This document shows, piece after piece, positions 3,868 to 9,754 of a stretch of 64,000 bases of DNA. A program made the position numbers and the translations under genes. The notes beneath the pieces were generated by a model, which saw only the letters and a list, made by a program, of their open reading frames with translations, did no database searches and was not told the origin of the DNA. Source of the DNA: Gimesia algae. Lineage in GTDB: Bacteria; Planctomycetota; Planctomycetia; Planctomycetales; Planctomycetaceae. The stretch is from contig NZ_CP036343.1 in the NCBI RefSeq assembly GCF_007746795.1, positions 5,741,357 to 5,805,356 of the forward strand. The letters run 5' to 3'. How positions within the stretch are numbered: position 1 is the stretch's first letter; the number at the start of each line of letters is the position of its first letter.

Positions 3868-5232
3868 TTATAGGATGAATTTGCTAAGGTCTTCATCTTC
3901 CACAATCGAATGCAGTTTCTGTTGAACATACGGCGCGTCGATCACAATCTTTTTCGTTTTGAGATCGGGTGCTTCAAAGCTGACTTCTTCCAGGAGACGT
4001 TCCAGAATGGTATGCAGACGGCGGGCACCAATATTCTGCGTCGTCTGATTCACTTGAAACGCAATTTTTGCCAGCTCTTCCAGACCATCCTGTTCGAATT
4101 TGATCTTCACGCCTTCGGTTTCCAGCAAAGCCTGATACTGCATCGTAATCGAACTGGTTGGCTCAGTCAGAATTCTGAGAAAATCATCTCGCGTCAGTTC
4201 CTGCAGTTCGACACGAATCGGAAAACGTCCCTGTAGTTCGGGCATCAGATCGGAAGGTTTCGTACGATGAAAGGCACCGGCTGCGATAAACAGCATATAG
4301 TCTGTTTTGACAGACCCACTGCGAGTCTGTACTGTGGTCCCTTCCACGATGGGCAGCAAGTCGCGCTGCACACCCTGGCGGCTCACATCGCCGCCTCGAC
4401 TGCCACCTTCTTCTGAAGTACAGATCTTGTCAAGCTCATCGATAAAGACGATCCCGCTGCGTTCGGCCAGTTGCACGGCTTCTTCGGCAATGGCATCTTT
4501 ATCCATCAAGCCTTCAACTTCCTGGTCGAGGAGAACTCCGCGTGCTTCTTTCACGGACATTTTACGATGCTTACTCTGCTGCGGCATAATGCGTTCAAAC
4601 ATGCCCTGCAGATCGACGTCCATCTGGTCCATGCCCATATTGGAAAAAACCTGCACGGGAGAGCTTTTCGGGTCGATCGAGATTTCGACTTCTTTCTCTT
4701 CGAGTGCCCCCTGGTTCAGCATTTTGCGAAACTTGTCGCGGGTTCGTTCGTAGCGTTCCGATGCGTTTTCTTCCTTACCTTCTTCGGTGGATTCAACGTA
4801 GGAAGCTTCCCATTCGGGTCGCGGAATCAACAGATCCAGCAGGCGTTCTTCCACACGGACTTTGGCTTTATCTACGACCTCCACGCGTTTGTTTTCACGG
4901 ACCAGATTTTTAGCCGAGTCAACCAGGTCGCGGACCATGCTTTCCACATCGCGACCGTAATAACCCACTTCGGTATATTTGGTCGCTTCGACTTTGATGA
5001 AGGGTGCATTGATCAATTTCGCCAGCCGTCGTGTAATTTCGGTTTTCCCGACCCCCGTCGGCCCGATCATGATGATGTTTTTGGGCGTGATTTCATTCCG
5101 CAGTTCATCGGGGAGCTGCTGCCAGCGCCAGCGATTTCGCAGCGCGATGGCGACAGCGCGTTTCGCGTCATCCTGACCGACGATATGTTTATCCAGTTCC
5201 GCGACGATCTGTCGGGGTGTTAACTCTTGCAC
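3868..5232 (-). CDS. hslU: ATP-dependent protease ATPase subunit HslU
   Basis: AAA+ unfoldase that feeds substrates into the HslV peptidase. The 454-residue length is normal. Features in order: [17 protein letters not shown] at the N-terminus, Walker A GPTGVGKT (57-64), the intermediate I-domain from about residue 110 to 240, Walker [11 protein letters not shown] near 260, the sensor region [12 protein letters not shown], and the C-terminal DLSKFIL tail that inserts into HslV. The start is a GTG with GGAGGAG six bases upstream, located inside the end of hslV, so the genes overlap by 13 bases and are translationally coupled. Confidence 0.97.
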
Positions 5233-5780
5233 TGCAGCTCCTCCACGATGATATTATTATTCGTATAGATGTCGATATCTGATGCGATTCCCAGCGATGT
5301 TTTCACAATTTCCGCAGCCGACAGCTGGGAATGCCCAATCAGCGCCCGGGCTGCTGCCGTCGCAAAGTTGCCTCCGGAACCGATGCCGATGACTCCATCT
5401 GAGGGTACAACAACATCTCCCTGGCCGGTAATCAGTAGACTATGTTCGTCATTGACGACGATGATCAGTGCTTCCAGTTTTCGCAAGACGCGATCGGTGC
5501 GCCAGTCACGCGCCAGTTCAGTTGCCGCCCGCGGCATATTACCCGGGTAATCCCGGGCTTTGACTTCGAAGCGTTCCAGCAGAGAAAATGCATCGGCGGT
5601 CGAACCGGCAAAACCACAGATAACGTGGCCGTCGAGAATCTTGCGAATCTTGCGGGTATCGCTTTTCATGACAGTATCACCATGGGTCACCTGTCCATCT
5701 CCGCCGATGGCAACCTGACCGTTATGACGCACTGTTAATATCGTTGTGGAACGCCATTTCTTTTTATCTTTGGAACCCAT
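5220..5780 (-). CDS. hslV: ATP-dependent protease proteolytic subunit HslV, with N-terminal propeptide
   Basis: N-terminal-threonine hydrolase forming the core of the HslUV protease. The mature sequence [19 protein letters not shown] aligns with the conserved start of HslV, so the nucleophile is Thr12 of the predicted product. Here it is preceded by an 11-residue charged leader ([11 protein letters not shown]) instead of the single methionine seen in E. coli, so autoprocessing is probably needed. [16 protein letters not shown] near residue 130 is the second family signature. I start at the ATG at 5780; an upstream in-frame start at 5837 would add 19 unconserved residues. It is the first gene of the hslV-hslU operon. 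Confidence 0.95.
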
Positions 5781-6185
5781 ATCTCTGATTTCATAAAAAT
5801 AATTGCTGATGATTTGAATCTTTACCCTTCGCGGCAAGATACCATAGAACAGTCCCGGAAGACATGCAAGCTTATGCCGAGTGATTCAACGCTGACTCAC
5901 TGTTCATTGTAACGTGTTTCAGATGATTGGAAACCAGCTGAATGGAATGCTTTTTCTCCCGAATACGCAACCTGCGATCATAGTCTTTCTGGAACGCGGT
6001 ATTCAATCGCAGCCCGGTCGTATGTTTTTGTTCTGATGGGTGAGAAAACGTATTCCACAGCGGTTGAGATCAGAAAATCATCCATTTCGTGGACACAAGC
6101 TTGGCGTGGAAGCAAGGAAAATTCACGGATTCCTCCCTGTATTCGCTCATGCCTTGAACTCAAAAGATCGGGTTCAGGATCATTT
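5781..6185. other. Remnant region at the end of the cassette island
   Basis: Between the stop of the DUF6985-like gene and hslV there is no intact gene. One minus-strand frame from about 6075 to 5872 is open for some 67 codons without a good start and may be a coding remnant. The 3' half of the long out-of-frame extension of the DUF6985-like gene also falls here. The hslV promoter should lie in the last 100 bases, but I see no clear hexamers. Confidence 0.35.
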
Positions 6186-6652
6186 TCAGCTAAAATATAA
6201 GCAGTCTGCACCGCCAACATCCAGGACATTATCCCCCTTAATAACAATGTCCACTCCGTGTTCTCGGTCCCACTTACAGACATAAGAGAATCCAACGGCC
6301 AGCGTATCGTTATGTAGTTGATGTATAGCATGTCATCTATCGCTTCCTTTCCAGTCAAGACTGTCATGTTCGCAACCCATTCTGGACCCGCTTTCTCATA
6401 TTGAGACCTGATATCGCAATAATACCTGAATAATCCGGTGCGCACCAATTCGGCATAATGCGCATTCTCGCCGACGATACGCTTCCATAAGTCCACTTGA
6501 AGATAGTGAGGTGGTATTCGCTCCTCATCCTTCGTCTCTACGGGGTCTTCCATTTCCCTCCCGAGTGAACCAAGGTCCGCGACATGCCCTGACCAGTGGA
6601 ACTCGTCCCACTCTAAGATCACATCTGTAAGCAATGTTGGTTTGTTATTCAT
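6186..6652 (-). pseudogene. DUF6985-like protein gene, broken by a one-base frameshift
   Basis: Translation from the ATG at 6652 gives an N-terminus (LTDVILEWDEFHWSGHV) and continues to about LTGKEAIDDM near 6330. From there the conserved continuation is in another frame: IHQLHNDTLAVGFSYVCKWD, then REHGVDIVIKGDNVLDVGG and a stop at 6186. That tail matches what I remember of the C-terminal part of DUF6985 (a W-D-x-E-H-G core, then a hydrophobic strand and a G-G-A-D end). The sum of both parts is about 155 residues. The first frame instead runs on unnaturally to 5978. One base is missing near 6325-6335, or two are extra. The ATG lies only six bases after the attC core, as expected for a cassette gene. 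Family assignment is from memory and moderate. Confidence 0.65.
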
Positions 6653-6658
6653 ACCTCT

Positions 6659-6720
6659 GACTAACGCTTGAATTAAATCGCGCCACGAAGCGGCGTCGGC
6701 TTGAATGAATTTTGTCAGGC
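6659..6720 (-). other. attC (59-base element) recombination site
   Basis: Read on the minus strand, the 62 bases start with GCCTGACAAAATTCATTCAA, continue through GCCGACGCC, loop GCTTCGT, GGCGCG, and end in TTTAATTCAAGCGTTAGTC. This is the standard attC layout: outer boxes R'' (GCCTGAC) and R' (GTTAGTC), inner boxes, and a central CGCC/GGCG hairpin. It closely resembles, from memory, the attC of the aadA cassettes of class 1 integrons. It lies after the YCII gene stop and six bases before the next ATG, which is exactly where a cassette attC belongs. Both outer boxes deviate by one base from RYYYAAC / GTTRRRY. Confidence 0.85.
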
Positions 6721-6750
6721 CGCACCTTCTGCGCCATTTCTATGCTGCCC

Positions 6751-7068
6751 TCAGGACTGCGGGTCGAACCCAAAGCCGCGTAGCTCCTGGTCACAACGAC
6801 AGGCCTTCGCCATGCGCGCGGCCCACGCGATGGCCTCCTCGCGCGACGGTAGTTCGAGTACCGTGAAGCCGCCATTGAGCGGAGGCGCCCACGAGTATCC
6901 TCCTGCGGCAAACGTGCCATCAGCCGAGACGAGCACCGGCGGGACTGCTTCGTCGATTACCGCGTGTGCGTCGCGACCAACCGCCTCCAGTTCGCCATCG
7001 GGTACGACCATCGCTGCGCCTGGAAATGGAAGACAGTCGTATGCGATGTTCTTTGCCGAACGCCACAC
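6751..7068 (-). CDS. YCII-family (YciI-like) protein, shortened
   Basis: The C-terminal two thirds (VLVSADGTFAAGGY, then NGGFTVLELPSREEAIAWAA and ACRCDQELRGFGFDP) match the YCII-related fold often annotated as dehydrogenase or DGPF-domain protein. The usual first strand (MKYxxLIY type) and part of the middle are absent, so the gene looks internally or N-terminally deleted. Starts possible are GTG at 7068 (105 residues) or ATG at 7011 (86 residues); I see no strong ribosome-binding site for either. The base composition is far more G+C-rich than the genes on both sides. It is the middle gene of the cassette array and is followed by the canonical attC. Confidence 0.6.
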   Translation of the reverse strand: MWRSAKNIAYDCLPFPGAAMVVPDGELEAVGRDAHAVIDEAVPPVLVSADGTFAAGGYSWAPPLNGGFTVLELPSREEAIAWAARMAKACRCDQELRGFGFDPQS

Positions 7069-7119
7069 TCGGTGGAAATTTGCGAACGCCAGTGTATAAA
7101 TCTCTGTAGCAGCGCCTTG

Positions 7120-7776
7120 TCAGGAGCCATTCAACCACCCTTGCTCAACAGCATACTCTACCTTTGAAATAAACCACCCATATATTTCGTAATTTTCTTC
7201 CTCGATAAATTGATGCATTTTCAACACTTGATTCTTGTGTATTCCGTTATCCTGCCATGATCGACCTTCGCTATTGATGTTATGAAGAAAAGGCAACAAG
7301 CGATCAATCACTTTTAAGAGTTTCGCTTCCTTACTCTTTCCTGCCTCTTGTTCCTCCCAAAGTTCAATGATATTTCCTATAGGATTTCCTGGGTGCAAAG
7401 CAATTTTTTCTACACATTTGCGTTCTTCAATATGCGCATCACTTCTATTGGTACTGTAAAGAAAGGTATCTCCCGCTTCGATTTCACCAAGATCATGGAG
7501 TAACGCAAGCTTGATGAGCTTCGAAATGTCATAATCTTCCGGAAACAATTCTGCAAACGCCCAGCAGGCCATAGCTAAATGCCATGAATGCTCAGCCGAA
7601 TTTTCCACTCGCTCGCCGCCATTGATGTAAGAGCGTCGATTTATCGACTTCAAAGCATCTAATTGTAGTAAAAAATCAGAGATATTTGAGATTCTCTCGG
7701 ACAAACCTGGCCTCCTGACTTGTATCTCATCGATGTTAATAAGTGGTTCTTTTCCGTGATTGACATTGCATATCAC
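7120..7776 (-). CDS. HD-domain hydrolase (YfbR-like 5'-nucleotidase family)
   Basis: The protein carries the metal-binding HD set of the HD_3/YfbR group: NSAEHSWHLAMA (first histidines), then LALLHDLGEIEAGD (the HD doublet), and a later aspartate in KVIDRLLP. Members hydrolyse deoxynucleoside monophosphates or related phosphoesters; the substrate here is unknown. I place the start at the GTG at 7776, immediately after the attC-like element, giving 218 residues; the TTG at 7800 lies inside that element. The gene is A/T-rich compared with its neighbours, a sign of separate origin. Its stop codon overlaps the sequence CCTGACAAGGCGCTGC, which looks like the left end of another attC whose right end is not recognisable. 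Confidence 0.8.
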   Translation of the reverse strand: MICNVNHGKEPLINIDEIQVRRPGLSERISNISDFLLQLDALKSINRRSYINGGERVENSAEHSWHLAMACWAFAELFPEDYDISKLIKLALLHDLGEIEAGDTFLYSTNRSDAHIEERKCVEKIALHPGNPIGNIIELWEEQEAGKSKEAKLLKVIDRLLPFLHNINSEGRSWQDNGIHKNQVLKMHQFIEEENYEIYGWFISKVEYAVEQGWLNGS

Positions 7777-7878
7777 GCATAACGCTCTGGGCGGGAACAA
7801 TCGCTAAGCCATTCGTATTCGGGAATCACTTGTTGTGAGTTCTTCTTTGGCTTCTCCGCTTCTTGTTGCGCGTTATGC
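7777..7878 (-). other. attC-like inverted repeat upstream of the HD gene
   Basis: Minus strand: GCATAACGC at one end and GCGTTATGC at the other form a perfect 9-base inverted repeat 102 bases apart, with AAGCC and GGCTT as possible inner boxes. GTTATGC is the type of R' box found in Vibrio repeat-like attC sites. The HD gene starts directly after it. The central part does not fold as neatly as in the 6659-6720 site, so this is less certain. Confidence 0.55.
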
Positions 7879-8124
7879 CGACGAGTTATCTGGGCGGGAT
7901 CGGGGAATTCAAATAAAGTCCCAGCGGCCGACAGTCGGTGGCGACGGCCTGTACTCGCGTTAGCTCTGGAGGCATGGAGATCGCCCCTTCGTAAAATACC
8001 AAGCTCTCACGTGATGGTCCATCACGATCTCAGGGAAAATGCATCCATCTTACATAGACATAAAGCTATCTGAAATATTTTCGATGTCAAGCAGTATGTG
8101 AGGGGATCAGGGCTAGGCTGTGTC

Positions 8125-8197
8125 CAGTTTTACTGTAGCGTCTCCAGGGCCATTTGGACCGAGTATAATAGATTGTCAGACGCTATGGTTAAATGTG
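8125..8197 (+). repeat. 73-bp dispersed intergenic repeat, copy 1
   Basis: Matches 36750-36822 (minus strand) at 69 of 73 positions by my alignment. Within it TAGCGTCT (8136-8143) and AGACGCTA (8178-8185) form a perfect inverted repeat 50 bases end to end, enclosing GAGTATAATAGATTGT. Both copies are intergenic. It could be a small MITE-like element, a regulatory element or a small RNA. Confidence 0.8.
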
Positions 8198-8270
8198 ATG
8201 CGATTTAGGCTGCTTCACTTCGAACGCACACTGGTCAGATCAGAAAACCACCCACTTTTCTGGAAAGTAC

Positions 8271-8335: not shown

Positions 8336-9754
8336 TTATGCCAGTATTCCGTGGGCGACATGACCGGCGACATCCGTCAGGCGGAAATCACGGCCCGCGT
8401 ATCGGTACGTCAGTTTTTCGTGGTCCATTCCGAGGAGGTGCAATAGAGTGGCATGGAAATCGTGGATATGCATTTTATCTTTGGCGGCATAGTAACCGAA
8501 CTCATCAGTGGCGCCATACTTGATTCCAGATTTCACGCCACCACCGGCGAGCCACATGGTGAAGCCTTCGGGATTGTGGTCGCGGCCATTTTTCCCTTGC
8601 GCAGTCGGAGTCCGACCGAACTCGCCTCCCCAGACGACCAGTGTATCTTTCAACAGACCGCGCTGTTTGAGGTCTTTCAATAACCCCGCGATCGGTTTAT
8701 CAACTTCTTTGGCATTTTTGCCATGCCCTTCCAGCAGATTCCCATGCTGATCCCATTGGACTTTCTGATCGCTGTGTGAAACCTGAATAAAACGCACGCC
8801 CCGTTCCGCGAAACGACGGGCCATCAGACACTGTCGACCGAAATCAGCGGTTTTCTCTTCATCCAGTCCATACATTTTCATGGTGGCTTCGGTTTCGCCG
8901 GAGATATCCTGGATCTCGGGAACTTCTTCCTGCATGCGGAAGGCCAGTTCAAACGAACCAATGCGATCGTTCAGAATCTGGTTCGGGCCGGTCTCTGCCT
9001 GATGCATACGGTTCAAGTCATTGAGAAAATCGACCTGTTTCCGCTGAACTTTGCGGGAGAGAAAATCATTTTTGATATATTCGATCTGCGCCTGTTTTGC
9101 GGCGACCGCTGCATTCCCCAGTGGCGTTCCCTGATAAGGAGCCGGCAGGAATGCGGAGCTCCAGTTCTTCACTCCCCCATGTGCGAGTGTCGGACAAATC
9201 GTAATGAAGCCGGGCAGGTTCTGGTTTTCGGTTCCCAGTCCATACGTCACCCACGATCCCATACTGGGTCGCACAAAGGCATCGCTGCCGGTATGCAGTT
9301 TGAGTAAGGCGCCGCCGTGGGCCGCATTGGTTCCATGCAGTGAGTTAATGATACAGAGATCATCCACGCATTCTGCCACATTGGGGAACAGTTCGCTGAC
9401 ATGAATGCCACTTTCGCCGTACTGCTTAAACTTCCAAGGCGACTTCAACAGGTTACCGGTAGGGGCAAATTGAACCCGTGGTTTATCAAACGGGAGCGGT
9501 TTACCGTCATACTTCTGTAGCTGCGGCTTGTAATCGAACGTATCCATGTGGGAGGGGCCTCCCTTCATGAACAGAAAGATGACCCGCTTGGCCCGGGGCG
9601 TGAAATGGGGTTCTTTCGGCGCCAGAGGATCTTTCAATTGGGAGGCTTGCGCTTCATCATTCAACATAGAGAGTAAGGCGAGGTTTCCGAAACCGACGGC
9701 TGATTTTTTCAGCAGTTCCCGGCGGGAATATAATGATTGAGGTAGGATACTCAT
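8336..9754 (-). CDS. DUF1501 domain protein (Tat-exported, sulfatase-fold)
   Basis: The N-terminus [20 protein letters not shown] is a twin-arginine signal. The body shows the DUF1501 landmarks [32 protein letters not shown] near residue 145, [20 protein letters not shown] near 305 and [15 protein letters not shown] near 375. The family belongs to the alkaline phosphatase/sulfatase superfamily but its reaction is unknown. The gene follows the cytochrome/DUF1549/DUF1553 gene by 72 bases in the same direction, the standard planctomycete pairing, so the two products probably act together on an extracytoplasmic substrate, perhaps a polysaccharide (inference). The length of 472 residues is normal. 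Confidence 0.93.

Follow-up and report, generated by a model that had tools for sequence, protein, structure and literature searches.

The spacer between hslV (ORF 5220-5837) and a DUF1501 gene (8336-9754) on the single 7.93-Mb contig of Gimesia algae very probably holds what is left of an old integron cassette array that is now immobile, lacks an integrase, and has kept one gene. Three genes lie head to tail on the minus strand of this spacer: an HD gene, a YCII-like gene, and a third ORF (DUF). As the original prediction had it, they are of unlike base composition: the GC content is 0.405 for HD (7120-7704), 0.639 for the YCII-like gene (6751-7060), and 0.472 for part of the DUF ORF (6100-6652), against 0.503 for the window (the whole 64-kb stretch of DNA that was analysed). 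The segment had been placed at 5872-8000; its actual limits are at about 6093-8232. Below, G000 is the own genome, G008 and G012 are the congeners that carry the segment, and G006 is a congener with an alignable empty site.

The original prediction, a decayed cassette array without an integrase, was right in kind, although not in age and detail. The evidence that carries it is the kinship of one worn site, attC1, to known attCs, the kinship of a second site to a stretch of plasmid pKAZ2, the lack of an integrase, and the existence of attC-flanked relatives of HD. The segment no longer works as an array and most likely descends from one.

A Cassette Gene Kept by Selection

The HD gene (7120..7704, minus strand) starts with TTG and encodes 194 aa. 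That it is an HD hydrolase gene is borne out by its match to HD_3 (E 9.7e-36, 123.6 bits, with a cut-off of 22.5), and its solved kin by sequence are 3kh1, HDDC2 (4dmb), and YfbR (2paq), which places it with the HD_3/YfbR/HDDC2 phosphohydrolases. It falls far below the cut-off of the NCBIfam 5'-deoxynucleotidase equivalog (25.9 of 122 bits). The product is most likely a 5'-nucleotidase-like metal phosphohydrolase.

Among the 80 relatives kept of 582, the nearest outside Gimesia are gammaproteobacterial (Porticoccus 81%, Microbulbifer 79%, Halomonas socia 77%, and Nevskiaceae 77%). In 392 planctomycete genomes, matches outside the genus (at E 1e-25 or better) reach at most 40%. In a tree of 43 rows, for which 34 of the 80 loci were used, the three Gimesia rows fall within a 10-row clade (support 96/92), the other seven rows of which are gammaproteobacterial.

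In certain of these hosts, HD is a gene cassette bounded by attCs. Matches to an attC covariance model (E up to 5; see below) were found in 3 of the 80 loci, L097, L098, and L101, all of which belong to the 10-row clade, and an attC adjoins HD in each. HD is bounded on both sides in L097 and L098, while in L101 the upstream attC was found by the model and the downstream one by eye; the flanking matches in L098 and L101 are rows on which the model was trained, and those in L097 are not. The four other gammaproteobacterial rows of the clade (L096, L099, L100, and L102) gave no model match, and L096 and L099 look attC-like by eye. An integrase over the cut-off lies on the same contig as HD, 1.3 kb away in the uncultured gammaproteobacterium L_MB228 (L097, genome G415) and 6.1 kb away in Halomonas socia (L098, genome G416). 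The HD proteins of Halomonas socia and L_MB228 are 77% and 73% identical to that of Gimesia, and their attCs lie right at the stop codon, where Gimesia has an attC-like site. Unlike the Gimesia sites, these attCs are recognised by the model (as training rows, in the case of the two Halomonas sites), and unlike Gimesia, both hosts have the integrase nearby.

Among the three Gimesia copies, omega is 0.094-0.122 for HD and 0.033-0.041 for hslV, so HD is under purifying selection. In all three pairs, dS is lower for HD (0.215-0.326) than for hslV (0.387-0.534), which may be due to codon bias or to later exchange among congeners.

A Worn attC Site, a Probable Second One, and a Palindrome

The site attC1 (6659..6720, minus strand), which would belong to the YCII cassette, had been described as a canonical attC. 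Its kinship to the attCs of class 1 cassettes stands; its form is not fully canonical. In blastn at an E limit of 10, the stretch matches 4,922 of 72,556 plasmid records; 26 of 40 matches sampled at even steps of the ranking have an E of 2e-7 or better, and the best among those listed is 3e-11. The named features under these matches are aac(6')-IIa, aadB, and aadA16. Over its length, attC1 is 85.5% identical to the attC of aac(6')-IIa, 80.6% to that of aadB, and 82.3% to its own G008 copy, so that it is kin to known attCs by sequence. It is worn, however: R'' is GCCTGAC, where GAC replaces AAC and thus faces the GTT kept in R' (GTTAGTC), and the spacer is 2 nt longer. The covariance match is partial (10.9 bits), with an E of 4.9 when the whole window is searched with filters off and of 0.19 when 2.5 kb is searched. 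Its folding energy is unremarkable (z -0.14), being equalled by 86 of 200 shuffled sequences. No significant model match was thus obtained at 6659-6720, an outcome that the original prediction had named as counting against it. Because the site is homologous to true attCs, the weak score points to mutation rather than to the absence of an attC. In G008, the copy is more decayed, with GTT changed to GAT in R' (GATAGTC), while in G012 the homology ends at 6739, where a copy of a 95-bp repeat starts.

One or two attC-like inverted repeats had been announced beside attC1. At 7055-7125 (minus strand), for which no coordinates had been given, a worn attC-like site of the HD cassette, attC3, begins over the HD stop codon. 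It has relatives outside the genus: in blastn against plasmid pKAZ2 (KR827391), the own copy matches with an E of 1e-4 at 79% and the G012 copy with an E of 7e-12 at 87%. The matching stretches of pKAZ2 and of Providencia follow a gene stop; they bear no attC annotation and are not model matches. Inspection by eye shows AAC, GTT, and arms that pair in the pKAZ2 stretch, after the stop of the gene; the central hairpin resembles, by eye, the estX attC. Two other weak model matches lie 1.2-2 kb upstream of the pKAZ2 stretch (L207, E 0.23 and 0.62). The Gimesia site itself folds in an ordinary way (z 0.78), has no covariance-model match, and, like attC1, has GAC in place of AAC in R''. From this homology to an attC-like plasmid stretch, 7055-7125 is probably an attC.

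A third candidate, at 7777..7878 on the minus strand, is a true palindrome that may descend from an attC. Its minus strand folds better than shuffled sequences (z -2.97; 2 of 200 shuffles), its R arms pair perfectly, and it holds a 9-bp AAC..GTT inverted repeat, for which 0.13 are expected per strand of 64 kb (30 resamples). It was missed by a strict scan, and it has no blastn match under E 1 and no attC-model match up to E 10. It is a possible remnant attC2. The claim that start codons directly follow the attC ends is right for the DUF gene, whose ATG (6652) lies 6 nt past the end of attC1, but not for HD, whose start lies 72 nt past the end of 7777-7878.

Two Broken Genes

The YCII-like gene (6751..7060, minus strand) is broken. 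Alignment with G008 and G012 reveals that a deletion of about 40 bp has removed the start of the own copy, which bears a second deletion, of 45 bp, inside; the gene is intact in G012 (113 aa) and has an early stop codon in G008 (101 aa). The identity as YCII was not confirmed, the scores of 15.5 and 15.3 bits being below the Pfam cut-off of 24. The nearest plasmid relative (85%) is on a megaplasmid of Gemmatirosa; of two attC matches there, the nearer is about 0.8 kb away, and they do not flank the gene itself. The two matches on this megaplasmid (L229:20954-21830) lie about 0.8 kb and more from the gene, and a tblastn search with four IntI proteins found no integrase in the 45 kb that it covered. 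Since none of four relatives of the gene (L034-L037) has an attC, YCII may have been an ordinary gene.

The DUF ORF (5978..6652, minus strand), which would be the cassette gene after attC1, has lost its 3' end: roughly the last 36 codons come from DNA with homology to the empty site. Since the ORF runs through the direct repeat described below into this DNA, both the original 3' end and any attC have been lost. G008 retains the first 19 bases of the gene and no more. Likeness to DUF6985 had been suggested, and the shortened ORF has a weak match (E 0.14, 13.1 of 24.5 bits), whereas the full ORF matches no family at E up to 1. No relatives were found in 391 further planctomycetes, in a search that recovered the own copy as a control; nor were any found in plasmids, viral contigs, and 274 gammaproteobacteria, where the searches had no positive control and show little.

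Integrase and attC Sites in the Genus

The original prediction that no integrase is in the window extends to the genome. An integron integrase match (TIGR02249) over the cut-off was found in none of 17 Gimesia genomes, the own included, as compared with 71 of 392 genomes in the phylum. Tyrosine recombinases of 298-336 aa give the best matches in the own genome; they align in two pieces and leave out model positions of about 176-239, where the integron-specific additional patch of intI lies. No intI with this patch, as a complete integron would have, was found in the own genome. Two of the tyrosine recombinases, both of 298 aa and with the same scores (L001 and L002, at G000:C1:565639 and 6759556), have relatives of equal length at several places in G001 and G013 and are perhaps a mobile element.

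The covariance model was built from 20 attC arms and replaced a first regular-expression scan, which had found 13 candidates, spread over 6 of 20 planctomycete integrase regions. On positives, the model gave, at E up to 1, 53 matches in 15 of 28 loci (these include two overlapping pairs of loci, and many of the matches are training rows) and 18 matches, one of them a training row, in 11 of the 20 planctomycete integrase regions at the same E; it matched none of five Microbulbifer, Photobacterium, and Vibrio regions (L186, L187, L188, L190, and L191). In the own genome, no match was found at E up to 10 (150 of 2,163 first-look candidates scored), and no significant attC was found in the 64-kb window. 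The model is narrow, so its silence on the own genome does not prove the absence of attCs. At E up to 5, single matches occur in 6 of the 17 Gimesia genomes. Those in G012, G001, G002, and G014 (L209, L211, L212, and L213) score from 25.5 to 30.1 bits, and L212 and L213 have a common motif, TAACAAATCGCTCAACCGG, in opposite orientation.

Insertion into the Spacer

The segment is flanked by imperfect direct repeats, which appear when its ends are aligned with each other and with the empty site: one on the hslV side (6062..6092) and one on the DUF1501 side (8233..8263). The hslV-side repeat matches 8237-8257 at 86% over 21 bp, or at 77% over 39 columns with gaps, and the empty site of G006 can be aligned with either end of the segment, the two alignments overlapping by 23 bp. 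That the direct repeat might be a dispersed repeat was rejected, since there is one further match with two mismatches in 17 genomes, and not at the syntenic place.

A gene order common to all related genomes, which the original prediction had named as counting against it, was not found. Of 16 congeners, eight have both flanks without the segment, two (G008 and G012) have the segment, and six have no flank match. Seven of the eight segment-free congeners have 211-228 bp between the aligned flanks, and G006 aligns almost throughout. In G012, the duplication is no longer visible, and an extra gene for a protein of 1,121 aa lies between hslV and YCII; this gene (L030:1984-5349) has weak matches to HEAT repeats.

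The supposition that the genes had been recently exchanged does not survive. The HD and YCII genes of G008 and G012 are 84-85% identical to the own at the DNA level, and the three copies have decayed differently. Recent transfer was rejected on this ground, and contamination or misassembly was rejected for the same divergence of 15-16% and the same differences in decay.

Flanking direct repeats are not produced by cassette insertion. Their presence suggests that the segment entered by some other event.

Probable Origin and Fate of the Array

The most probable scheme is as follows. The HD, YCII-like, and DUF cassettes, each of which would once have ended in an attC, entered the common ancestor of the three Gimesia lineages and came to rest in the hslV-DUF1501 spacer between the imperfect direct repeats. 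Without an integrase in the genome, the attCs no longer serve recombination and have drifted, and the YCII and DUF genes are in the process of loss. Selection has retained HD, the kin of a gammaproteobacterial cassette, as a normal gene of the chromosome. We infer the arrival of the cassettes as an array and the route and direction of their transfer. Selection has thus kept one gene, and the sites and the remaining genes are decaying.

Another possibility overlaps with this scheme, the route of entry being the sole difference: the segment might be a genomic islet acquired by non-integron transfer, via an integrative element or illegitimate recombination, the donor's array never having been active in Gimesia. 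The flanking repeats and the empty site favour such an islet, none of the 17 Gimesia genomes has an integrase over the cut-off, and at 7885-8113 there is additional DNA in which no clear gene is seen. However, inspection of the ORF list by eye turned up no ORF in the segment resembling an integrase or a relaxase, and the single attC-model matches in 6 of the 17 genomes (E up to 5) suggest that attCs may not be foreign to the genus. We consider this route plausible, at somewhat below an even chance. A more specific version, in which the direct repeats are the mark of an unrecognised integrative element that brought a ready-made gammaproteobacterial array, the HD cassette of which was then domesticated, seems to us unlikely; if true, cassettes would gain a route into integrase-free lineages.

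The array might also be still usable, with its imperfect attCs recombinable by an integrase acting in trans and its cassettes still mobile. In a passage of PMC9668308, the cassettes of CALINs are described as movable by foreign integrases, and attC1 retains GTT in R' (GTTAGTC). This reading is very improbable, given the change of AAC to GAC in R'' of both attC1 and 7055-7125, the altered spacer, the lack of a significant model score, the HD-YCII order kept in three lineages, and the breakage of YCII and DUF. Finally, the idea that palindromes in the spacers between unrelated acquired genes resemble attCs by chance, to which the silence of the covariance model, the ordinary fold energies of attC1 and 7055-7125, and the unsupported status of 7777-7878 might lend themselves, is scarcely credible in the face of the E of 3e-11 with which attC1 matches resistance-cassette attCs, the E of 7e-12 with which the G012 copy of 7055-7125 matches pKAZ2, and the attC flanks of HD in its gammaproteobacterial kin.

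Comparison with Known Arrays

The locus had been called a CALIN, and it resembles one in its head-to-tail cassette-like genes, its attC-related spacers, and the lack of an integrase over the cut-off in the genome. The label does not hold in the working sense given in part of PMC9892861, which is that of at least two predicted attCs. No significant attC is predicted in the window or in the own genome, and homology yields one worn attC (attC1) and one probable one (7055-7125). With attCs below detection by the model and two of its three genes broken, the Gimesia locus is a fossil and not a countable CALIN. Off-target insertion, loss of intI, and rearrangement are among the routes to CALINs proposed in a section of PMC8618304. 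A remnant of this kind is missed by such a covariance model, and such remnants may therefore be undercounted.

The cassettes of class 1 integrons with attCs of the aadB or aac(6')-IIa type are alike in that attC1 is 81-86% identical to these attCs over its length. In contrast to them, the Gimesia array is chromosomal and planctomycete, has its AAC triplet changed, has no intI over the cut-off, and contains no resistance gene among its three genes.

In our search of the literature, we found no publication on integrons in Gimesia (this does not extend to a claim that the locus is unpublished) and none on IntegronFinder in connection with CALIN degradation and pseudogenes. The Gimesia remnant clearly illustrates a phenomenon of a known type: a cassette gene common to gammaproteobacteria and Planctomycetota has been selectively kept after its recombination sites decayed, and an empty site and three differently decayed copies are available for comparison.

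The Remainder of the Segment

The segment ends in two stretches of other DNA. The first (7885..8113) is remnant DNA in which the ORF list gives no minus-strand ORF of 60 aa and which, among 14 loci compared, is common to G012 alone. The second (8114..8208) is, from comparison of the genome and its congeners, a copy of the 95-bp dispersed repeat. This element has no Rfam match at the gathering score, and a scan of the window at gathering scores gave a tRNA and nothing else. It matches at least 43 places in the own genome (40 of 300 candidates scored) and has matches in all 16 congeners searched. As RNA, its plus strand would form a strong hairpin (-33.1 kcal/mol for 8110-8212). In G008 and G012, copies of the element occupy the places of worn attCs of the locus.
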